From a virus, in the IMG/VR virus record IMGVR_UViG_3300036398_003753, positions 1 to 61,520 of that record: a DNA stretch of 61,520 nucleotides. The stretch is one strand, 5' to 3'. Within the stretch, counting starts at the first letter, position 1, and every line of letters starts with the position of its first letter. A model generated the notes under the pieces. It was not told where the DNA came from and made no database searches. It saw only the letters and a program-made list of their open reading frames with translations. Of this stretch, positions 29,519 to 42,461 are shown in pieces. The translations under genes were made by a program, and so were the position numbers.

Positions 29519-29734
29519 ATGTTTCAGATTGAGTCGGGCGTAGAGATGCCTGTGGGGCGCACAAAGTACCCCTTTGCTGACATGCATCCAGGGGATTCGA
29601 TCCGTTTTGGCAACGAGAAGCTGGCCAACAGTGCCCGGGTATCGGCCATGCGGTTTGTTCGTGCGCATGCCCCTGATTGGTCGTTTCAGTTACGCCGGGT
29701 TGAGAACGGCTGGCGCTTATGGAGGGTCGCATGA
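29519..29734 (+). CDS. Small basic protein upstream of terminase (71 aa)
   Basis: It starts MFQIESGVEMPVGRTKYPFA. The pattern KYPFADMHPGDSIRF...SAMRFVRAHAP and terminal RVENGWRLWRV is a small beta-rich phage module in which a YPF..M..GDS strand precedes basic residues. It is probably nucleic-acid-binding, but the function is unknown. AGGAG precedes ATG 29519; a longer frame from 29339 is rejected because it crosses the promoter. It overlaps the terminase gene by ATGA. Confidence 0.65.
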   Translation: MFQIESGVEMPVGRTKYPFADMHPGDSIRFGNEKLANSARVSAMRFVRAHAPDWSFQLRRVENGWRLWRVA

Positions 29735-30402
29735 AGCGGGACGTGTGGAACGTGCCGCCTGTCATTGGCAACAAGGCACAAAAGCGCATGTCTGGCCAGG
29801 TAGCGCCCCTGCGTAAGCAAAAGGTCTTGTCTGGCAAGGAGTGGAAGTTCGTCACAGAGCTTGTCACAGGGGATGGCCGGGTGACTTTGAAGGAAGCGGC
29901 CATCAGGGCCGGGTACAAGCCCACAAGCGCATCAGTGATGGCTTGGAAGCTGACAAACCCGGAAATCAATCCTCACGTGGTTTCAGCCATCCAGGCGTAT
30001 CGGGCAGAGCTCAACAGCAAATACAACACCTCGTATGACAGGCACATGCGGGACTTGCAGACCATCCGGGACAAAGCCCTGGAAGCTGGGGCTTATGCTG
30101 CTGCCGTACAGGCAGAATATCGCCGTGGGCAAGCCCTGGGCACAATCTACGTTGATCGCAAGGAAATCAGGCATGGAACAATTGACTCGATGTCCAAAGA
30201 GGAAGTGCAGCGCAAGCTGGATGAGCTGCGCGCCCTGTATGGGGGACCGCCCCCGAGCGCGCTCATTGATGCCAGCACTGGCCAGGTGATCGAAAGTGTC
30301 GAGCGTGAACGGGACCCGGCTTTTGTCTCTCCAGTGGCGGAACCTCCCCCGGATATCTTTGAACGGGACAACGATTTGGGACCCGACGATGACAACGCCT
30401 GA
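29731..30402 (+). CDS. terS: Terminase small subunit
   Basis: A 223-residue protein. LSGKEWKFVTELVTGDGRVT followed by LKEAAIRAGYKP and WKLTNPEINPHV is the terminase_2 pattern: an N-terminal HTH (about 48-75) that recognises the packaging site, then a coiled region (SYDRHMRDLQTIRDKALEAG) that oligomerises. The C-terminus is acidic and Pro-rich. ATG 29731 follows GGAGGGTCGC. The large subunit lies 4.2 kb away at 34648, which is unusual because the two are normally adjacent. Confidence 0.8.
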   Translation: MKRDVWNVPPVIGNKAQKRMSGQVAPLRKQKVLSGKEWKFVTELVTGDGRVTLKEAAIRAGYKPTSASVMAWKLTNPEINPHVVSAIQAYRAELNSKYNTSYDRHMRDLQTIRDKALEAGAYAAAVQAEYRRGQALGTIYVDRKEIRHGTIDSMSKEEVQRKLDELRALYGGPPPSALIDASTGQVIESVERERDPAFVSPVAEPPPDIFERDNDLGPDDDNA

Positions 30403-30812: not shown

Positions 30813-30880
30813 TTGCACGGCTGTTTATTTGCTGCTATGATAGCGGCACCGGACAACATCCGGCAACACAGAAAGGATAG
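30813..30880 (+). promoter_or_regulatory. Promoter-hairpin leader cassette 1
   Basis: TTGCAC (30813), a 17-bp spacer with extended TGC, then TATGAT (30836-30841). Seven nt later CCGGA/TCCGG (30849-30863) forms a hairpin at the predicted mRNA 5' end. GAAAGGATAGAG and ATG 30885 follow. Confidence 0.75.
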
Positions 30881-31714: not shown

Positions 31715-32677
31715 ATGGCACATATGATCGACACCACTACAGGCAAGGCCGCCATGGCTTACGCTGGCAATACTCCCTGGCACGGTTTGGGCCAAGCCCT
31801 GACGCCTGATGCATCAATCGAAACATGGACCCGCGAAGCCGGTTTAGATTACACAGTCAAGGAATCCCCCGTACTGTTTCAGACTGACGCGGCCACACTG
31901 CCGGAGGAATTCAAGGGCCGTAAAGTTTTGCACCGCTCAGACACTGGCGGGGCACTGGCTGTAGTGTCTGACGGGTACCGCGTGGTGCAACCAGCTGACG
32001 TTATGGGCTTTTTCGGAAAGCTGGTGGAGCTGGGCGGGTTTCAAATGGAAACCGCCGGAGTGCTCAGCCATGGCCGCCGGGTTTGGGCACTGGCGAAAGT
32101 GAATCAGGGCGCGGATATCGTAGAGGGTGACACCGTGCGCCCTTATGTGCTGCTGGGCACGTCATACGATGGAACAATGGCCACTGTGGCTAAATTCACG
32201 TCAATCCGCGTAGTGTGCAATAACACCATTACCGCGGCATTAGGCCGGGAAAATGCTGGCACTGTTCGAGTGCTGCACTCTGAGCGCTTTAACCCTGACG
32301 CGGTCCGCATGGAGCTGGGCATTGTGGGCGATAACTGGGAGCGGTTTTTGATCCAGTCTCGCAAGCTGGCGGGCGAAAACTTGTCAGCAACTGATGCCGA
32401 TATGTTTGTTCGTTCGCTGCTGCAGCCATACCACACCAGCAAGGTGCCAATGAATGAAACCCGCGGATATAAGCGGATTATGGAATTGTTCAACGGCCAG
32501 GCTATCGGCGCGGATATCCCCGGGGTGTCTGGCACCCGCTGGGCTATGCTCAACGCTGTGACCGAAATGGTGGACCATGAGCGGGGCCGTTCGAACAATA
32601 CCCGCATGGAGTCCGCATGGTTTGGCACTGGCGCGGCCATTAAAAATAAGGCACTGGAGCTGTTAGCTGTTAACTAA
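31715..32677 (+). CDS. DUF932 / phage-plasmid-like protein (TIGR03299 type)
   Basis: A 320-residue protein. NTPWHGLGQALTPDASIETW, YRVVQPADVMGFF, the long GRRVWALAKVN segment and FTSIRVVCNNTITAAL are the signature of the DUF932/TIGR03299 family found on phages and plasmids. The function is unknown; family members are often expressed early or near mobile-element replication modules. It has its own promoter cassette and is closed by a terminator at 32715. Occurrence on plasmids fits the phage-plasmid idea. Confidence 0.85.
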   Translation: MAHMIDTTTGKAAMAYAGNTPWHGLGQALTPDASIETWTREAGLDYTVKESPVLFQTDAATLPEEFKGRKVLHRSDTGGALAVVSDGYRVVQPADVMGFFGKLVELGGFQMETAGVLSHGRRVWALAKVNQGADIVEGDTVRPYVLLGTSYDGTMATVAKFTSIRVVCNNTITAALGRENAGTVRVLHSERFNPDAVRMELGIVGDNWERFLIQSRKLAGENLSATDADMFVRSLLQPYHTSKVPMNETRGYKRIMELFNGQAIGADIPGVSGTRWAMLNAVTEMVDHERGRSNNTRMESAWFGTGAAIKNKALELLAVN

Positions 32678-32714
32678 TGAAAACCCGGGGCCGATAGTCT
32701 CGGGCTATCGAGTG

Positions 32715-32741
32715 AAACCATGCGGAAAACTCATGGTTTTT
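32715..32741 (+). terminator. Rho-independent terminator after DUF932 gene
   Basis: AAACCATG (32715-32722) pairs with CATGGTTT (32732-32739) around a 9-nt loop, followed by TT. It is preceded by a second hairpin, CGATAG/CTATCG. It isolates the following palindrome region from upstream transcription. Confidence 0.7.
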
Positions 32742-32804
32742 CCCGGTTAGTTGCGGCATGGAGAAACCAGGCCCGCGGTCCCCCTCGCTTTTCCCCTAAA
32801 ACGT

Positions 32805-32823
32805 GGCGCGCGCCCCGCGCGCC
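32805..32823. repeat. GC-rich inverted repeat
   Basis: GGCGCGCG and CGCGCGCC separated by CCC, an 8-bp perfect stem of only G and C. It lies 10 bp left of the parS palindrome. Confidence 0.8.
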
Positions 32824-32832
32824 GCGGTCCGT

Positions 32833-32860
32833 GGGCCATGTTTCACGTGAAACATGGCCC
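32833..32860. promoter_or_regulatory. parS-like chromosome partition site in a perfect 28-bp palindrome
   Basis: The core at 32839-32854 is exactly TGTTTCACGTGAAACA, the near-universal ParB binding site of bacterial chromosomes. Flanking GGGCCA and TGGCCC extend the symmetry to 28 bp without a mismatch. It lies in a gene-free region between a terminator and promoter cassette 3. No ParB gene is visible, so the reader would be the host ParB (inference). Confidence 0.88.
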
Positions 32861-32864
32861 GGGC

Positions 32865-32884
32865 CCCGGGGCTATGGCCCCGGG
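32865..32884. repeat. GC-rich inverted repeat
   Basis: CCCGGGGC and GCCCCGGG separated by TATG, an 8-bp perfect stem 4 bp right of the parS palindrome. It forms a cluster of three palindromes within 80 bp. Confidence 0.8.
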
Positions 32885-32928
32885 CGTGGCGATTGATAAA
32901 TTTAATTGGCCGCGGCCCGTGGTGGCCG

Positions 32929-32990
32929 TGCTATAATAGCGGCACTGGTGCGGGGGTCCCCGCACCGGGTAACCTTGAAAGGATAGAGAA
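32929..32990 (+). promoter_or_regulatory. Promoter-hairpin leader cassette 3
   Basis: Extended -10 TGC-TATAAT (32929-32937) without a clear -35. The strong hairpin GGTGCGGG/CCCGCACC (32947-32966) starts about 9 nt later. GAAAGGATAGAG leads to ATG 32992. Confidence 0.75.
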
Positions 32991-32991
32991 A

Positions 32992-33249
32992 ATGCAAATC
33001 GAACAAGTCGCCATGGCCGTGGTCAACGACCCGGCCACCGAACAGGCCCGGCTAATGGCCCTCGCCACCTGGCTCGCTGGCCGGGATAGTGCTGCCGTGC
33101 ATATGCTGCTGATCCCGGTTTTTGCTGAGCTTCGCAAACCGATTTATGAGGGCGTCCAGTTTGACGGGTCGTCATGGCAAGCCGCCGCCCGGGTGCTGGA
33201 TTGGCAGATTGATAACGCTATCGCTGAGCGTGAAGGGGGTGCAGCATGA
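32992..33249 (+). CDS. Hypothetical early accessory protein (85 aa)
   Basis: It starts MQIEQVAMAVVNDPATEQAR and is mostly helical, ending AIAEREGGAA. No family is recognised. ATG 32992 follows GAAAGGATAGAG of cassette 3; a longer frame from 32854 is rejected because it crosses the promoter and parS palindrome. It overlaps the next gene by ATGA. Confidence 0.65.
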   Translation: MQIEQVAMAVVNDPATEQARLMALATWLAGRDSAAVHMLLIPVFAELRKPIYEGVQFDGSSWQAAARVLDWQIDNAIAEREGGAA

Positions 33250-33470
33250 TCGAATTCGCCGCCCGTCCTACCGCCGCCCAGATCACCGCCGCCATTAAGC
33301 AGGGCCTGGCCCGGCGAGACCGGGCCATTGAGATTCGCTGGGGGGAAAACTGGATCGAGGTTATCTGGACCCCGCACGGCCTGATCGGGTCCGGGTGGAT
33401 CGGTAAGCACTCGGGGCAAGATATCGCCGAAGATATTGCAAGAAAGTTCCCCGCACTGGTGGAAGCCTGA
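33246..33470 (+). CDS. Hypothetical accessory protein (74 aa)
   Basis: An alpha/beta micro-protein: helix PTAAQITAAIKQGLARRDRA, then strands IEIRWGENWIEVIWTPHG and a second helix IAEDIARKFPALVEA, like a small double-stranded-RNA-binding or ferredoxin-like fold. The function is unknown. It is the second gene of the cassette 3 unit; the next promoter overlaps its stop. Confidence 0.62.
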   Translation: MIEFAARPTAAQITAAIKQGLARRDRAIEIRWGENWIEVIWTPHGLIGSGWIGKHSGQDIAEDIARKFPALVEA

Positions 33471-33520
33471 TATAATAGTGGCACTGGGGCAGCGGCCCCA
33501 GTATCAACCCAGAAAGGATA
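33468..33520 (+). promoter_or_regulatory. Promoter-hairpin leader cassette 4
   Basis: Extended -10 TGA-TATAAT (33468-33476). Six nt later, ACTGGGGC-AGCG-GCCCCAGT (33483-33502) forms an 8-bp hairpin. GAAAGGATAGAG precedes ATG 33526. Confidence 0.78.
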
Positions 33521-33525
33521 GAGTC

Positions 33526-33930
33526 ATGACAAACCCATTCGCACAACACCGCTCAGCCCTGTTCGCGGAGCGCGAGACAATTGACGAAGCTCTCAATTAT
33601 GCCCATGAGGTGCTCGCCTCACTGGTGGGTAGCGACCGCGCTGCTGCCATGACCGCGGTCATGGTGCTGGTCAACACTGCCGCGAAACTCTGGCCTGCAC
33701 CTGTCCAGGCGGATCCGGCCCGTGCCCTACTGGCGGACATTGTCCGCCAAATGGTCGAGGAGACTGTCGGAGATCTCGACTCCAAAATGGACGCGTGGGC
33801 GATGAACTCGCTGGTGTTCGAAGACGCATGCGACAGCCGGGTCGAGCGCTGGATCGAGAATGAGCTAGACATCAGTGACCAGATCGAGAGCGCCATTACG
33901 GAAATGGACCTAGTGGTAAGAGTCCGATAA
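33526..33930 (+). CDS. Hypothetical accessory protein (134 aa)
   Basis: It starts MTNPFAQHRSALFAERETID and is predicted all-helical and acidic toward the C-terminus (VERWIENELDISDQIESAIT). No known domain. It is a single-gene unit behind cassette 4. The individually promoted, early-style position suggests a host-interaction role, unproven. Confidence 0.65.
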   Translation: MTNPFAQHRSALFAERETIDEALNYAHEVLASLVGSDRAAAMTAVMVLVNTAAKLWPAPVQADPARALLADIVRQMVEETVGDLDSKMDAWAMNSLVFEDACDSRVERWIENELDISDQIESAITEMDLVVRVR

Positions 33931-33936
33931 AAATAT

Positions 33937-34012
33937 TTGACACGGGGCCAAAACCCCGTGTTATAATAGTCCCACTGTGTCAACCGACACAGTACAACCA
34001 ACCATAGAGGAT
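33937..34012 (+). promoter_or_regulatory. Promoter-hairpin leader cassette 5 with operator-like spacer
   Basis: TTGACA (33937) and TATAAT (33962-33967) are 19 bp apart. The interval is filled by the inverted repeat ACACGGGG/CCCCGTGT (33940-33961), which could be an operator or could twist the spacer. ACTGTGTC-AACC-GACACAGT (33974-33993) forms the leader hairpin 6 nt after the -10, then AGAGGATAGAG and ATG 34020. Confidence 0.75.
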
Positions 34013-34019
34013 AGAGACC

Positions 34020-34322
34020 ATGAGCAAGATCATCACAATCGACAGCAGCCGTTACATCCTGCCAGAGGGCATGACCACTAAAGACATTCAAGCATTGGCA
34101 GGCATGCTGATCAGTCTGACTAAGGTGGAGCACTGCTACCTGTACCCCAACTATGACAGCCTGTTTTATGCGGGTGAAGGTGTCCAGGTGGGCGTGAGCA
34201 CTGCTACACTCATGACCAAAGAAGAGGCGAAGGCCAAAAGCGCCGCGAGCCGCGAAGCAGAAGACGCGAAGAAAGCAGCGCAGGCAGCTGGAGATCTGCT
34301 GACAGCGCATGTAGTCAGCTAA
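34020..34322 (+). CDS. Hypothetical accessory protein (100 aa)
   Basis: It starts MSKIITIDSSRYILPEGMTT, a beta/alpha N-terminus, with a C-terminal charged Ala/Lys helix (KEEAKAKSAASREAEDAKKA). No family is recognised. It is the last of the cassette-driven genes and is followed by two hairpins, including a strong terminator. Confidence 0.65.
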   Translation: MSKIITIDSSRYILPEGMTTKDIQALAGMLISLTKVEHCYLYPNYDSLFYAGEGVQVGVSTATLMTKEEAKAKSAASREAEDAKKAAQAAGDLLTAHVVS

Positions 34323-34361
34323 GGCATAGGGGCCACGGCCCCTAGCACACTCTGACCCACT

Positions 34362-34389
34362 CGCCTGTCGCGCCAGCGACAGGCGTTTT
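34362..34389 (+). terminator. Rho-independent terminator before terminase large subunit
   Basis: A 10-bp stem CGCCTGTCGC / GCGACAGGCG with a GCCA loop, then TTTT. An additional hairpin AGGGGCC-AC-GGCCCCT lies at 34328-34343. It separates early accessory units from the late operon. Confidence 0.85.
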
Positions 34390-34647
34390 CCCCGAATTTT
34401 TTCCCTCAAATGGTGGTGGCGGGGGTGGGTGGGCCCGCCTTACCTCTACGTGTGTATCTATCTATGACTTTCAGACAGGGGGAGGGCCATAAACAACCCG
34501 TCAGTAATAGAGATCAACCTATGTCCTATTTCTGCCCCAGATTTTGTCCAGGAAAACTTGACCCCCCCCACCCCCTAAAACAGGCCCCCTTGTTTTCAAA
34601 ACGCCAACCCCGGGTTAGTATTCGCAAAATTCAAAACCTGGTCCACG
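34390..34647. other. Non-coding stretch upstream of terL (late promoter / packaging-site candidate)
   Basis: No supported gene. It contains strand-asymmetric runs: G-rich at 34411-34435, CT-rich at 34440-34470, and C-rich (CCCCCCCCACCCCC type) at 34560-34595. I see no clean -35/-10. Its place between an isolated terminator and terL makes it a candidate for the late promoter or a pac site. Confidence 0.4.
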
Positions 34648-36117
34648 ATGCACAACACTTTGCCCAAAGATGCCGAAGAAGAAATGCTGCGCCTGCAACT
34701 GCGGCTCCAGCTCCTCGAGGCGCACGAAAAGTCCACCAATAACTTCCTGGACTTCTGCCGTTTTGTCTGGCCCGAAATGCTTGTTGGGGAACACCACCGC
34801 ATCATCGCGAAAGCCCTTGACCGAGTCATCTCTGGCGAATGCAAACGCTTGATGATTGCGATGCCTCCCCGGCACGGTAAGTCACAAATGGGCAGCTATC
34901 TGTTTCCTGCTTACGTCATGGGGAAAAAACCCGACGCCAAGCTGATCGTCGGCTCGCACACCGCGGAGCTCGCTCAACGCTTCGGTCGTATGATCCGAAA
35001 CCTCGTGGACGACGAGAAGTACAAAGAGCTCTTCCCTGGCATGCAGCTGTCCATTGACTCCAAGGCTGCTGGTCGGTGGAACACGGCCCAAGGCGGTGAA
35101 GCCTTCTTCATTGGTAAGGGCGGCGCGATGACCGGGCGCGGCGGTAATATTGTCATCTTGGACGACATCTTGGACGAACAGGACGCTCTGTCTGACACGG
35201 CCATGGAGAACACGTGGGAGTGGTACACCTCTGGTCCTCGTCAGCGATTGCAGCCAGGCGGCGCGATCATTGTGATCAACACCCGTTGGAAGACAGACGA
35301 CCTCTCTGGCCGCCTGTTGAAACAGCAGGGATACCTGAAGTCTGATCAGTGGGAAGTGCTGGAGTTCCCTGCAATCCTTCCCAGCAACAAACCCCTCTGG
35401 CCAGAGTATTGGCCGATTGAGGAACTGGAGAAGGTCAAGGTCTCCATTGGTCTGAAGAAGTGGAACGCCCAGTGGCAGCAGCAACCCACGAACGACGAAG
35501 GTGCTGTCTTGAAGCGCAACTGGTGGCGCAAGTGGACACACGACGATCCGCCGTACTGTGAATACATGCTGCAGACCATGGACACGGCGTACTCCAAAAA
35601 GGAGACCGCCGACTTCTCGGTCATCGCAACGTGGGGCGTGTTCACCCCTGATGCTGACTCGGGCCCCAACCTCATCTTGCTGAACGTGCGCAAGGGTCGC
35701 TGGGATTTCCCGGAACTGAAAAGAGTCGCGCGCGACGAGTACCAGTATTGGAAGCCCGATAACGTCCTGATCGAGGCCAAGGCCACCGGCACGCCACTCC
35801 AGCAGGAACTCCGCCGGATCGGGGTCCCCGTCACGATGTACTCTCCTGGCGGAAGGCGGGCCGGGCAGGATAAGCTGGCACGTGCGAACGCGGTTGCACC
35901 TCTGTTGGAATCGGGCATGGTTTGGTATCCCGAGGGCAAGGAATGGGCCGAGGAGCTTGTTGAGGAATGCGCGGCCTTTCCCAACGGTGCCAATGATGAC
36001 CAGGTGGACGTTACGACAATGGCTTTGGCCAGATTCCGTCAGGGCAACTTTGTTGCTTTGGACTCGGACGACAACGACGAGCCGGAGCCATCAACCGAGG
36101 CGGTTGAGTATTATTGA
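34648..36117 (+). CDS. terL: Terminase large subunit
   Basis: A 489-residue packaging motor. The Walker A variant is MPPRHGKS (72-79) and Walker B is IVILDDILDE (Asp172, Asp173). The C-terminal RNase H-like nuclease has MDTAYSKKE (Asp312), VLIEAKATG and GANDDQVDV (Asp near 450). All ATPase and nuclease motifs are present. The SD is poor (ACCTGGTCCACG), so initiation may be weak. It is the first gene of the late operon. The small subunit is 4.2 kb upstream. Confidence 0.94.
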   Translation: MHNTLPKDAEEEMLRLQLRLQLLEAHEKSTNNFLDFCRFVWPEMLVGEHHRIIAKALDRVISGECKRLMIAMPPRHGKSQMGSYLFPAYVMGKKPDAKLIVGSHTAELAQRFGRMIRNLVDDEKYKELFPGMQLSIDSKAAGRWNTAQGGEAFFIGKGGAMTGRGGNIVILDDILDEQDALSDTAMENTWEWYTSGPRQRLQPGGAIIVINTRWKTDDLSGRLLKQQGYLKSDQWEVLEFPAILPSNKPLWPEYWPIEELEKVKVSIGLKKWNAQWQQQPTNDEGAVLKRNWWRKWTHDDPPYCEYMLQTMDTAYSKKETADFSVIATWGVFTPDADSGPNLILLNVRKGRWDFPELKRVARDEYQYWKPDNVLIEAKATGTPLQQELRRIGVPVTMYSPGGRRAGQDKLARANAVAPLLESGMVWYPEGKEWAEELVEECAAFPNGANDDQVDVTTMALARFRQGNFVALDSDDNDEPEPSTEAVEYY

Positions 36118-36161: not shown

Positions 36162-39100
36162 ATGTCCCAAGAACTGTCTGACAAGATCCGTGCTGCTGCG
36201 CAGGCCAAGAACATTGATCCAGATGTGGCTTTGGCTATTGCAAGGGCGGAGAGTGCGCTCAAGCCCACGGCCAAGGCCAAGACGTCCACTGCGGGTGGAT
36301 TGTTTCAGGTGGTGGATGACACGTGGAAGGAGTTTGGTGGAAAGCCTGGCAAGAAGTTTGATGCGGATGAGAACATTCGTGTGGGCACGGATGTCATTGC
36401 AAAGAACGCGCAGACACTTAAGAGTTTCCTGAACCGCGATCCGCGGCCCGCGGAAATCTACGCAGCCCACTACTTCGGCCCCACTGGGGCGAAGAACTTT
36501 TTGTCTGCGGAGCCTGGCACGCCGATGGAGAAGATTTTTTCGGAAAAGGTGATCAGGGCCAATCCGAACTTAAAGGGCAAGACCTCTGATCAGGTGATGG
36601 CTCAACTGGAAACCAAGATGGGTGGACGCCCTGCTGCCCCCACTGTTTCACGTGAAACATCCGAGCCTCCCGCAAGAAAACCTCTGCCCCCTTCTTTGCC
36701 TCCAATGGCTGCCGCTCCGATGAAGGAGCAGGTTGCAAGTCTTGGCCCGGGCTACCAAGCAGCGCTGGCTCTGTCCTTCCTGTCGGACTCGGATGACAAG
36801 CCTGAGCGGGACGTGGAAAAGGAACCGGGGATCGCGGAGCAGTGGCTGGCGCAAACCGCAACGCGGCCCTCGGTCATGGCGCAGTTCACTGACCTGAGTA
36901 TCAAATCCCCGTTTGCCGAACCCCAGCAGCCTCAGATGCTGGCTGATGGCGGGGAGGTCAAGGAGCCTGGCTTGCTATCGGTGCCGACATATTCCAGGAC
37001 GGTGAGCTACGAAATGTACCCTGGGCAGGAAGGGCAGTTTGATCAACGCGACGCGGCCCGGCATATGCTGGCTTCTGGCACGTTGGCTCGCAAATATGGC
37101 CCCACTGCGGCGGAGATGATGGGCAAAATGCATGAGATCGGCACGTCGCCGCTCAAATTCCTGGGCTCCAAGCTGGGTATTTCCGAGATGCCAGTGGATT
37201 ATGAGCAGGATTTGCACAACAACCGCATCGGGATTGAGCTGGCCAGGCGCTCCAAGAGTCAAAAGGACTTGGAAGATTTGGTCCAACAGATGGCGGAGCA
37301 AGCTCGGGGTCAGCGCACAGAGGGAAAACCTTGGACAGGACGCCCTGTTCGCCGCGCGGACGGCGGTTCGGCAGAGCCAACCCCTGAGGAAATCGCTGCG
37401 GCAAGCCGTCCGGCCACTGTCAACCCCAATATTCAGCGCCAAGGCGAGGCTGCCAGGAGACTGGCAGCGATGCGGGACGTAAATACACTGCCCGATCCAC
37501 GTACCTATGCCGCTGTTTCCGGATTTTTGGGCCAAGCACCGGACGAAATGGGTTTTTCTGCCCTGCATCCGGACCGTGAGGGCATAAAAAGGGCGGGGCA
37601 AGCTGGTTTTGGCATTGGAACCGCGCTCCAAGTCGCTCCAATCGTGGGCGGAGCGATGAAATTGGCCAACATCGGACCGAGTTCCGGGGGTAGAACCACT
37701 GCGGCGCAACAATTAGGCGCTGTTCGCACGCGGGGCACGCCTCTTATGATGGGTTATGGGAACACGCGGGGCCCGGATGGGGCATTGCCTTCCATGAACC
37801 AGGCCGAACAGTACGTCAAAAACGAAATTGCCATAACTGGCGACCCAAAATTAAACGATTGGCTCTCAAATAGGGTGACGTCCTACCTGCGCCGGGATTT
37901 TGCCACTCCGGACGACCAGTTTGTCAAGGCTGCGGACGCCAATCAGCTGCTACATTTCGTAAATAAGCCAACAAAGCGCGTTGACTTGGACCCATATTAC
38001 GAAAGAATTGAAAACATGTCGGTTGACGTGGGCAGCTTGCCGTATGTGCGTAAAACTCAAGGTTTTAACCCACAGGGTGAGGCTACAACCGCATATGGCA
38101 AGCGGGTGGAAGACTTGACGGATGCCTCAGCGTGGCCCGTGGAGCTTCAAGACATAACCTCACCAGGGTTGATTCCTCCCAGCATGCGCAACATGGTAGA
38201 AACCAATCCATCAGCACGGTTGACGGAGCTTGGGACAAACATTGACGAGACGTTGCAGCTTGATCAGTTGGCAATCGATATGGACAAGATGCGCAGAATG
38301 CCTAAAACCTATTCTGTCTATTCCCAGCCCCCTGTAAAAGTTCCTGAGGAATACATGCTCACAGACGAAGCATTGACGGGGCTCACTCTTGCACAGGCAT
38401 CAAACCGGGTGGCAAAGTTTAAGAACTGGGAAGAACAGACCCGGCTTAATATGGCATCTAGGGCCCTCTTCGAGGACCCTTCTATCAGCCGGACGCCCGC
38501 AGGAGATAAAAGTGTTTGGGTGAATCCAGCAGATTTGCAGGAAAACCCAGCCATGCTTAAACTGGTTACCGATGTGGGCTGCGATGGCGGCTGGTGCACC
38601 AAAGGTGAAACCTATGCTCTGTCTTATGGTAGCGGAGAAAACCGTTTATCCATTTTGATGGACAGCAAGGCGCGCCCCCAGGCACAGATAACGATCACCA
38701 CCAAGCAGTACACCCCAGACGAGTTTATAGCGTCCATGGCAGATGATGAGGTCGTTGCGTTCCGGGCAAAATATCCTGATATTGCCGCGTATCAGACGGA
38801 TGCGATTGCTCGCACGCCAGAGTTCCGCCAGTGGCAGTCGATGAACCCGGACGGTCTTTCAATTACCGAAATCAAAGGCGTCAACAACCAGACGGATTTG
38901 ACAGACGCTCCGTACCTCAAGCAAGTTCAGCAACGAGTCAAGGATCTTGATTCTATGAATGGTTTGCAAAGTGTGGAGAACTTGGATGGAATCAACATGA
39001 CGGATCTGACTAGCCGGTTGTACGGCCATCCGTCTATTGCAAACCGACCCCGAGTCACGAAAGAGGACATGAAGTCAATTCTTGACGAAGCCGCTCGCCT

Positions 39101-40046: not shown

Positions 40047-42461
40047 ATGCCAATCGAGAAAAACAACGACCTGCCTGCGGGCAATATGGATGTTGAAGTT
40101 GAGGATGTCGTAACAGAGGATCTGCCCGACATCGAAATCACCTTTGACCCCGAAGGTGGCGTTGAGGTAGCGCTGGGCGAAGAGGATGACGAGGTTCCGT
40201 TCGATGCCAACCTTGCCGAGGTCCTCGATCCGGGCGTCTTGCAGCAGATCAGCTCAGAGCTCATGCCCCTGTTTGAAGCAGACCAGTCTTCGCGCAAGGA
40301 TTGGGAAGAGCAGTACGGCAAGGGCCTCAAACTCTTGGGCTTTACGTTTGATGAGCGCACCAAGCCGTTCAAAGGCGCAGCCGCGGCCACCCATCCATTG
40401 CTGACTGAGGCGATCGTGCAGTTCCAGGCGCAGGCGCTCAAGGAATTGCTGCCTGCAGGCGGTCCTGTGCGCACACAAGTGCTGGGCAAGGAAACACGCG
40501 AGAAGTTGATGCAAGCCGATCGCGTGCGCGACTTCATGAACTACCAAATCACCACGGTGATGGAAGAGTACACGCCTGACTTTGATCAGCTCTTGTTCTA
40601 CGTGGGCTACGGCGGCTCTGCGTTCAAGAAAGTGTATTACGACGAGGACAAGGGCCGCATGGTCAGCAAGCTGATCCTGCCTGACAATCTGTACATCCCC
40701 TACAACGGTTCGAGCGTCATGAGCGAGTGCCCTCGCATCACGCACGTCGTGCCGATGACGGTGAATGACTACAACAAAGCCGTGCTGCGTGGCCAGTACC
40801 TGGACACCGCGCAAGAGCGCAGCACTGCTGACGTTGGCAACAACATCATCCAGAAAGAAACCGACCGCGTCACCAAGATCAGCCCCAACGCTGATGACGA
40901 GGAAATGGAACTGCTGGAGTTCCAAGTCGATTGGGATTTGCAGGGCTTCGAGCACACCAATGATGATGGCGAGCCCACAGGCATTCGACTGCCCTACATC
41001 ATCACTGTGGACAGAACCTCTGGCTCCACAGTGGGCGTGCGCCGCAACTGGAAGGAAGGCGACGAACTGTACCGCCGCAAGCAGTACTACGTGCACTACA
41101 CCCTCGTGCAAGGCCTGGGCGCGTATGGCTTGGGCTTCTTGCATTTGGTGGGCGGCCTCAGCCAATCCGCCACTTCCGCACTGCGCCAACTGATCGACGC
41201 AGGCACTCTGGTCAACCTGCCAGCGGGTTTCAAGGCCAAGGGCGCGCGCATCATGAACGACGATGTGCCGCTGCAGCCAGGCGAGTTCCGCGACATTGAC
41301 GCAGGTGGTGTGGAGTTGACTCAGACGCTGATGCCGCTGCCCTACAAGGAGCCAAGCCAGACTCTGTTCGCGCTGCTTGGTTTTTGTGCCGATGCGGGTC
41401 GCCGCTTGGCCAGTGTTACCGACATGCAGGTGGGCGACAGCAACCAAAACGCTGCTGTGGGCACAACGATCGCGTTGCTGGAAAAGGGCGGGCAGGTCAT
41501 GTCCGCGATCCACAAGCGCTTGCACTATGCGCAGAAGATCGAGTTCTCTCTGTTGGCCAAGGGCTTCTCCGAGAACCTGCCTGACGAGTACCCCTACGAC
41601 GTACCCGGCGAGAGCCGCACCGTCAAGCGCAAGGACTTCGATGACCGCATCGACGTACTGCCTGTTTCTGACCCCAACATTTTCTCTGTTGCTCAGCGCA
41701 TCACCATGGCGCAGACCCAGCTGCAACTGGCGCAGAGCAACCCCCAGATGCACAACATGTATGAGGCCTACCGCCGCATGTACGAAGCCATCGGGGTGCG
41801 GGATATTGACGGCATCCTGAACACGCAGAACGTGGACAAGCCAAAGGACCCTGCCAGCGAAAACTCGCAGGCATTGGACGGTTCGCCGCTCAAGGCCTTT
41901 GCTGGCCAGCAGCACGACGCCCACATCATGTCGCACCTGATGTTTGGCATGTCACCCATGCTGGCAAGCATGCCTCAGGTCGCTGTCAACCTGCAAAAGC
42001 ACATCTTCGAGCACATTCGCCTCAAGGCGGAAGAGGCTACCGAGGCAGAGTTGTTCCAGCAGTACGGCACAGACCCGGACAAGATCGTGTCTGCCCTGCA
42101 GCGCGAGGCGATGATCGCTATCAAGAGCACCGAGTTCTACCAAGAGGCCAAGCAAATGCAGACGCAGCTGGAAGGTCCTCCACCGGAAGATCCATTGGTC
42201 AAGGTCAAGGAGCAGGAAATCCAGGCCAAGGCCGCTGCCGATCAGGCCAAGGACCAAAACGAAAAAGCACGCATCCAACTGGACGGCATGCGTGTGCAGG
42301 GCGACCTTGCACTGGACCAGGCCAAGCTATCCCTGGATGCCCAAAAACTGCAGCAGCAAGGAGTCAAAGATGCAAGCCAAGCCAACCAAAACGCCCAAAA
42401 CGCCCGCCTCCAAGCGATTACCCGGGCCCAAAAAGGTGGCAACCCCAGCCGACAAACCTAA
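40047..42461 (+). CDS. Portal protein, P22-like
   Basis: An 804-residue portal. Recognisable blocks are KPFKGAAAATHPLLTEAIVQ, FVYVGYGGSAFKKVYYDED-like text, and VGRRLASVTDMQVGDSNQNA with IALLEKGGQVMSAIHKRLHY. The C-terminus is a long Gln/Lys/Ala helix (about 690-800), like the barrel of long-form portals. The dodecameric ring would accept terminase and later the gp4-like protein (48236). SD AAGGAAC precedes ATG 40047. The last 92 nt overlap a small gene in another frame. Confidence 0.88.
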   Translation: MPIEKNNDLPAGNMDVEVEDVVTEDLPDIEITFDPEGGVEVALGEEDDEVPFDANLAEVLDPGVLQQISSELMPLFEADQSSRKDWEEQYGKGLKLLGFTFDERTKPFKGAAAATHPLLTEAIVQFQAQALKELLPAGGPVRTQVLGKETREKLMQADRVRDFMNYQITTVMEEYTPDFDQLLFYVGYGGSAFKKVYYDEDKGRMVSKLILPDNLYIPYNGSSVMSECPRITHVVPMTVNDYNKAVLRGQYLDTAQERSTADVGNNIIQKETDRVTKISPNADDEEMELLEFQVDWDLQGFEHTNDDGEPTGIRLPYIITVDRTSGSTVGVRRNWKEGDELYRRKQYYVHYTLVQGLGAYGLGFLHLVGGLSQSATSALRQLIDAGTLVNLPAGFKAKGARIMNDDVPLQPGEFRDIDAGGVELTQTLMPLPYKEPSQTLFALLGFCADAGRRLASVTDMQVGDSNQNAAVGTTIALLEKGGQVMSAIHKRLHYAQKIEFSLLAKGFSENLPDEYPYDVPGESRTVKRKDFDDRIDVLPVSDPNIFSVAQRITMAQTQLQLAQSNPQMHNMYEAYRRMYEAIGVRDIDGILNTQNVDKPKDPASENSQALDGSPLKAFAGQQHDAHIMSHLMFGMSPMLASMPQVAVNLQKHIFEHIRLKAEEATEAELFQQYGTDPDKIVSALQREAMIAIKSTEFYQEAKQMQTQLEGPPPEDPLVKVKEQEIQAKAAADQAKDQNEKARIQLDGMRVQGDLALDQAKLSLDAQKLQQQGVKDASQANQNAQNARLQAITRAQKGGNPSRQT

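Follow-up and report, generated by a model that had tools for sequence, protein, structure and literature searches.

Chromosomal-type parS sites near the terminase genes of aquatic phages in which no ParB was found

Two parS sites in the window

The IMG/VR virus record IMGVR_UViG_3300036398_003753 (61,520 bases), which was analysed over its whole length and is referred to here as the window, carries two exact copies of TGTTTCACGTGAAACA, the 16-bp palindrome of chromosomal-type parS, a site for which certain variants are also accepted (Table 1). Copies with 1–3 mismatches are absent, and shuffled sequences averaged 0.24 hits at ≤3 mismatches; two exact copies without any such near matches are unusual. 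Copy 1 is intergenic and was the subject of a preliminary description, which overlooked copy 2. The latter lies in a Pro-rich linker of the transglycosylase-like protein encoded after terL (terminase large subunit), and is the conserved one of the two.

Table 1. Features of the window around the two parS copies
Feature	Position (nt)	Strand	Remarks
Terminase small subunit gene	29719..30402	+	phrog_51 3.2e-8
DUF932 protein gene, to the left of parS copy 1	31715..32677	+	PF06067 1.2e-56
Intergenic region with parS copy 1	32678..32991		rich in palindromes in most relatives
Perfect 28-bp palindrome GGGCCATGTTTCACGTGAAACATGGCCC enclosing parS copy 1	32833..32860		arms GGGCCA/TGGCCC
parS copy 1, TGTTTCACGTGAAACA	32839..32854		intergenic; 0 mismatches
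85-amino-acid open reading frame (ORF), right neighbour of parS copy 1	32992..33249	+	matches no family
terL, terminase large subunit gene	34648..36117	+	phrog_38 4.6e-113
Transglycosylase-like protein gene, 1043 amino acids	36114..39245	+	SLT domain, DUF6973; follows terL
parS copy 2	36644..36659		exact; within transglycosylase-like gene; encodes (T)VSRET
Portal protein gene	40047..42461	+	phrog_1216 2.7e-42

Much of what had been stated about copy 1 was borne out. The scan returned the 16-mer without mismatch, the 28-bp palindrome around it is flawless, no gene lies between the end of the DUF932 gene and the start of the 85-residue ORF, and the quoted chance of about 1/70,000 is correct for equal base use (61520/4^16). 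The terminator and promoter said to border the region were not recovered, as a consensus scan of nt 32500–34700 detected neither a sigma-70 promoter nor a terminator on the + strand. A repeated TATAATA-containing unit is present downstream of copy 1. At four places in the window (nt 30833–30852, 32929–32948, 33468–33487 and 33959–33994) the repeated unit TGNTATAATAGNGGCACTGG is found, with a short inverted repeat after it and then GAAAGGATAGAG and a start codon, and these modules stand ahead of small ORFs. The combination of TGNTATAATAGNGGCACTGG and GAAAGGATAGAG is probably a phage promoter/ribosome-binding unit of a kind that the sigma-70 scan missed.

The position of copy 1 is shared with few other phages. 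Three relatives (L124, L084, L135) have the exact 16-mer there and a fourth (L126) has it with one change. Most relatives lack parS after the DUF932 gene, and most carry different palindromes in its place. Only the closest kin keep the arms of the 28-bp palindrome, either intact or with compensating changes (the window, L124, and L126 with GGGCAT/ATGCCC), and in L084 and L135 the arms are imperfect. The GGGCCA/TGGCCC extension thus probably does not belong to the ParB site. With its arms varying and other palindromes standing there in most relatives, the 28-bp palindrome was not supported as a functional unit.

Distribution of parS among related phages

The window belongs to a clan of HTVC023P/DSL-LC04-like podoviruses, with which it shares TerL, portal protein and gene order. 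Its TerL is 64% identical to that of Phage DSL-LC04 and 52% to that of HTVC027P, the HTVC023P/HTVC027P pelagiphages standing at about 50%. Eighty IMG/VR relatives were retrieved via TerL, and the whole records behind them were scanned for sites with ≤1 mismatch to TGTTYCACGTGRAACA, the reversed pattern serving as control. A site was present in 51 of the 80, and the reversed pattern in none. In a TerL tree, whose very long-branched DSL-LC04 and HTVC027P rows entered into no conclusion, the site is carried by all 14 members of the clade of the window and by 31 of 32 members of the sister clade; the exception (L141) is a fragment that extends only 254 nt beyond terL. Among the loci examined, the best match in siteless relatives has at least 4 mismatches, so that parS is nearly an all-or-none trait. 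Departures from the exact sequence include an inner mismatch in L134 (TGTTTCCCGTGAAACA) and one near an end of the site in G051 (TGTTTCACGTGAAATA).

Siteless clades were also searched for an alternative conserved palindrome, and none was common to most of these relatives. A four-member siteless clade has GCAGCGGCCGCTGC in common, about 1.1 kb upstream of terL. Two other palindromes, shared by 22 loci, differ from parS in that each keeps to a single narrow stretch upstream of terL. Among the palindromes noted in this part of the genome, TTGTATGTACATACAA lies about 400 bp upstream of terL at L142:5595 and in 21 sister-clade loci, again in a narrow region, and in L142 it forms part of the longer palindrome CTAGCTTGTATGTACATACAAGCTAG. 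The operator-like CTAATCGGCCGATTAG is found at L142:4519 and in 21 sister-clade loci, directly upstream of the ribosome-binding site of a small ORF.

Selection on the DNA of the coding copies

Forty-five loci of the set, which form 32 clusters at 90% nucleotide identity, have the conserved in-gene parS, and its sites in transglycosylase genes always share one reading phase. This raises the possibility that the coding copies are kept for the peptide V(S/P)RET, the intergenic copy being accidental. A comparable case, in which the peptide FHVKH is encoded in nuclease-type genes of HTVC027P-like phages, does look protein-driven. For the transglycosylase genes, the codon usage points the other way. 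The motif V(S/P)R(E/G)T was found 51 times, and in 50 of these it is encoded by exact parS DNA; the chance of exact DNA, given the peptide, is about 5e-4 per gene. Across the 32 clusters the commonest codon has a share of 1.0 in the V, E and T columns, and the R column has a single CGC, while conserved columns elsewhere with at least 3-fold degeneracy show clear synonymous drift (mean share of the commonest codon 0.59). The codon before the motif specifies varying residues (T, D, N, V, P, S), yet is always NNT. Four loci carry TGTTCCACGTGGAACA, in which both sides have changed and the palindrome is retained. Since 50 of the 51 coding motifs are exact parS DNA with fixed codons, selection in the coding copies, as judged from these alignments, acts on the DNA sequence itself. 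Peptide conservation was rejected on the synonymous-codon analysis and, given also the many noncoding copies, is scarcely credible. The gene around the site varies more widely, its open frames ranging from about 860 to 1950 codons among the relatives; in the window, the DUF6973 domain lies downstream of the parS linker.

parS in other viruses

An unbiased search of IMG/VR with the exact 16-mer returned at least 119 stretches, whereas three palindromes used as controls gave 1, 31 and 4. A chance origin was rejected on the rarity of these control palindromes and the absence of reversed-pattern hits. Among the matches listed, 40 have TerL or portal homology to the present clan, distant homology included, and in many of these 40 the site lies 60–170 nt before terL.

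The TerL of a second clade shares about 28% identity with that of HTVC027P, and 38 of the 80 loci of this clade have sites. Exact copies number 106 over 0.65 Mb and stand mostly in clusters of 2–5 upstream of terL; in records of 45–61 kb from this clade the sites occur only in such terL-region clusters. The sharing of the 16-mer by two distant clades bears on a rival proposal, in which some unrelated DNA-binding protein of phage or host uses it as an operator and the likeness to parS is coincidental. The parS role is assigned from sequence, and the region of copy 1 is rich in other palindromes, as such a proposal would have it; but all 16 positions are reproduced, and the T/C and A/G changes that occur are those seen on chromosomes, which makes an unrelated operator highly improbable.

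HTVC027P itself was considered as a cultured positive example and proved a weak one, as its copy has one mismatch and its relatives change the site synonymously in the FHVKH frame. Its closest relatives have only copies of the CGTTTCAYGTRAAACA type, in 8 of 80 loci, and these appear protein-driven. The HTVC027P site may thus be parS-like through the protein, because the DNA varies synonymously among relatives. It reads CGTTTCACGTGAAACA (L204:15912, HTVC027P 16412) and falls in an ORF that appears not to have been annotated and that reads YAFHVKHPNNTFILVK. A different, parS-like palindrome, TGTTACACGTGTAACA, occurs in about 8 copies on one 23-kb viral contig (L398 and L401, IMGVR_UViG_3300037423_000235).

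The probable reader of the sites

The possibility that the phages supply the reader themselves, as ParB or as a stand-alone HTH_ParB protein, was considered and rejected: the domains ParB_N (PF02195) and HTH_ParB (PF17762) were both absent from the window and the relatives tested, which accordingly lack the ParB required of a complete ParABS cassette. ParA was not seen among the window proteins scanned with PHROGs, a scan that covered part of the genes and included no search specific to ParA. Among 100 parS-bearing viral records, many of them fragments, only 5 have a ParB_N-like domain, 3 of these above the curated cut-off. The five carriers (L031, L038, L047, L060, L080) are candidates for having their own partition system.

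In the Burkholderiaceae, the family to which Rhodoferax belongs, 26 of 31 genomes have 1–3 parS sites, mainly TGTTTCACGTGAAACA and TGTTCCACGTGAAACA, and these two forms (TTTC/TTCC) are the same two that occur in the phages. Because no phage ParB was found and the site variants are shared with Burkholderiaceae chromosomes, the reader of the phage sites is most likely the ParB of the host.

Placement near terL and possible functions

Sites near terL occupy several non-homologous positions: the transglycosylase linker (+435 to +650 relative to terL) with a second linker spot 90 nt further, about +1.15 kb, −20 to −26 before the start, −1.8 to −2.4 kb, and +6 kb. In the window and the near-complete, site-bearing relatives of 60–62 kb (G010, G011, G019, G022) all sites lie within about 2 kb of terL; an exception is G006 (51 kb), which has a one-mismatch copy about 22 kb away.

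In three phage groups the sites stand where the packaging/late cluster begins, loose in exact position but within a tight neighbourhood. Such placement would be expected if the sites acted as a replication-sensitive brake, with ParB spreading from parS over terL and the first late genes, repressing them at low copy number and releasing them as it is diluted. In a study on P. aeruginosa (PMC5521831), a chromosomal ParB is reported to repress promoters adjacent to parS. Transcriptional roles of ParB have been described for few species and genes (PMC7022226), and some of the phage sites are 6 kb downstream of terL; a brake of this kind is considered rather unlikely. The location at packaging genes would also suit recruitment of the host condensin SMC-ScpAB, which ParB-parS brings to DNA in several bacteria (PMC7022226) and which might organise replication or packaging of the phage genome. 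Such recruitment is judged quite improbable.

The number of sites bears on a third proposal, in which replicating phage genomes would act as decoys that titrate host ParB away from chromosomal parS and halt segregation and division of the host. Site density is far above that of the chromosome (2 in 61 kb compared with 1–3 per genome), and phages of the second clade have up to 5 copies. Most phages of the first clade have a single site, however, and a decoy would not need to be placed so tightly at terL, so that this proposal, too, is unlikely. Because the sites are tied to terL and lysogeny genes are lacking, the brake, titration and SMC recruitment nonetheless stay in contention as rivals to partition.

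Proposed explanation

The exact parS sequences, the lack of an encoded ParB, the conservation at DNA level in dozens of relatives and the occurrence of the chromosomal variants together indicate that these are, very probably, genuine loading sites for host ParB that are under selection. The reading of copy 1 as a locus for host ParB, already put forward in the preliminary description, is thereby retained as the best one; its support is supplied mainly by copy 2 and the relatives, and not by the 28-bp palindrome.

At parS, ParB is loaded as a clamp dependent on cytidine triphosphate (CTP) and then spreads (PMC12704722), and plasmids are stabilised by chromosomal parAB together with a single parS (PMC7022226, PMC4368675). 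By analogy with this established biology of ParB, which is the source for binding, for loading of the clamp and for a connection to ParA, the CTP-dependent clamp of the host would load at the two phage 16-mers and slide across the packaging genes (terL, transglycosylase, portal), building a partition complex of host type on the phage genome. Such a complex would tie phage genomes to the ParA/nucleoid system of the host, and the phage DNA would be positioned, held separate and handed on to both daughter cells, as might matter in slow-growing hosts, in long infections or in a carrier state. Selected parS sites on phages without ParB, loaded with host ParB to form a partition complex that positions the genome, are on balance the explanation preferred here, with modest confidence. 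That positioning or partition is the purpose of the sites is proposed only tentatively.

Several observations weigh against partition. Tyrosine integrase (PF00589) is absent from 26 records, the window among them, in a search not aimed at serine integrases or repressors, and HTVC027P has been described as obligately lytic (PMC12753301); for these two reasons a classical plasmid-like partition is not obviously needed. The window proteins scanned, which represent part of the ORFs, include polymerase, helicase, primase and exonuclease families, with no lysogeny or partition family among them. The sole hint of a host is one genome-contig relative that was binned in a Rhodoferax metagenome-assembled genome. 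Whole clades of relatives, and most of the closest kin of HTVC027P, are without the site, so it is not essential. Finally, partition alone would not explain the tight link to terL. A broader formulation, which appears quite possible, is that apparently lytic, ParB-less phages of several aquatic clades use the segregation clamp of the host as a regulatory or positioning platform at the packaging locus; this would be a kind of host takeover, in which dilution of ParB might link genome copy number with the expression of late genes or with packaging.

ParABS on phages has been known where the phage supplies its own proteins. That selection maintains canonical host parS in numerous apparently lytic phages without ParB suggests the segregation machinery to be a common viral target in lakes and seas, and what ParB (and ParA or SMC) does to an infecting genome becomes directly testable. 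The parS content may also serve as a sequence tag, by which viromes can be scanned and compared with the parS variants of hosts for host prediction.

Comparison with known systems

Around terL, the portal gene and the replication genes, the nearest phages (Phage DSL-LC04 and the HTVC023P-type pelagiphages) match the window both in the genes present and in their order. No site within one mismatch occurs in DSL-LC04, HTVC023P or 023Pt_psg01, and the one-mismatch copy of HTVC027P lies in an ORF that appears to be constrained by its protein.

Chromosomal parS of bacterial ParABS systems has the same 16-bp sequence and variants, grouped as 1–5 sites in a small region, and presumably the same reader protein. 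The phage sites differ in being carried by a virus without ParB, in lying near terminase genes rather than oriC, and often in falling within coding sequence. Phage-plasmids and prophages with ParABS likewise have a partition site on a phage genome. Those of the P1/N15 type, and the extrachromosomal mycobacteriophages, encode their own ParA/ParB, whereas the present phages have neither an encoded ParB nor a tyrosine integrase, and their site is of the type found on host chromosomes. Closest in principle are plasmids with a cloned chromosomal parS, in which a single site is enough for the Par proteins of the chromosome to work on a replicon outside it (PMC7022226, PMC4368675). These are laboratory constructs for which the par operon was supplied, while the phage sites are natural, viral and under selection. 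In the literature covered, which excluded most subscription papers and preprints, nothing was found that describes host-type parS on phages lacking ParB. parS itself is a known element; its natural use in cis by ParB-less phages of lytic type appears to be new.
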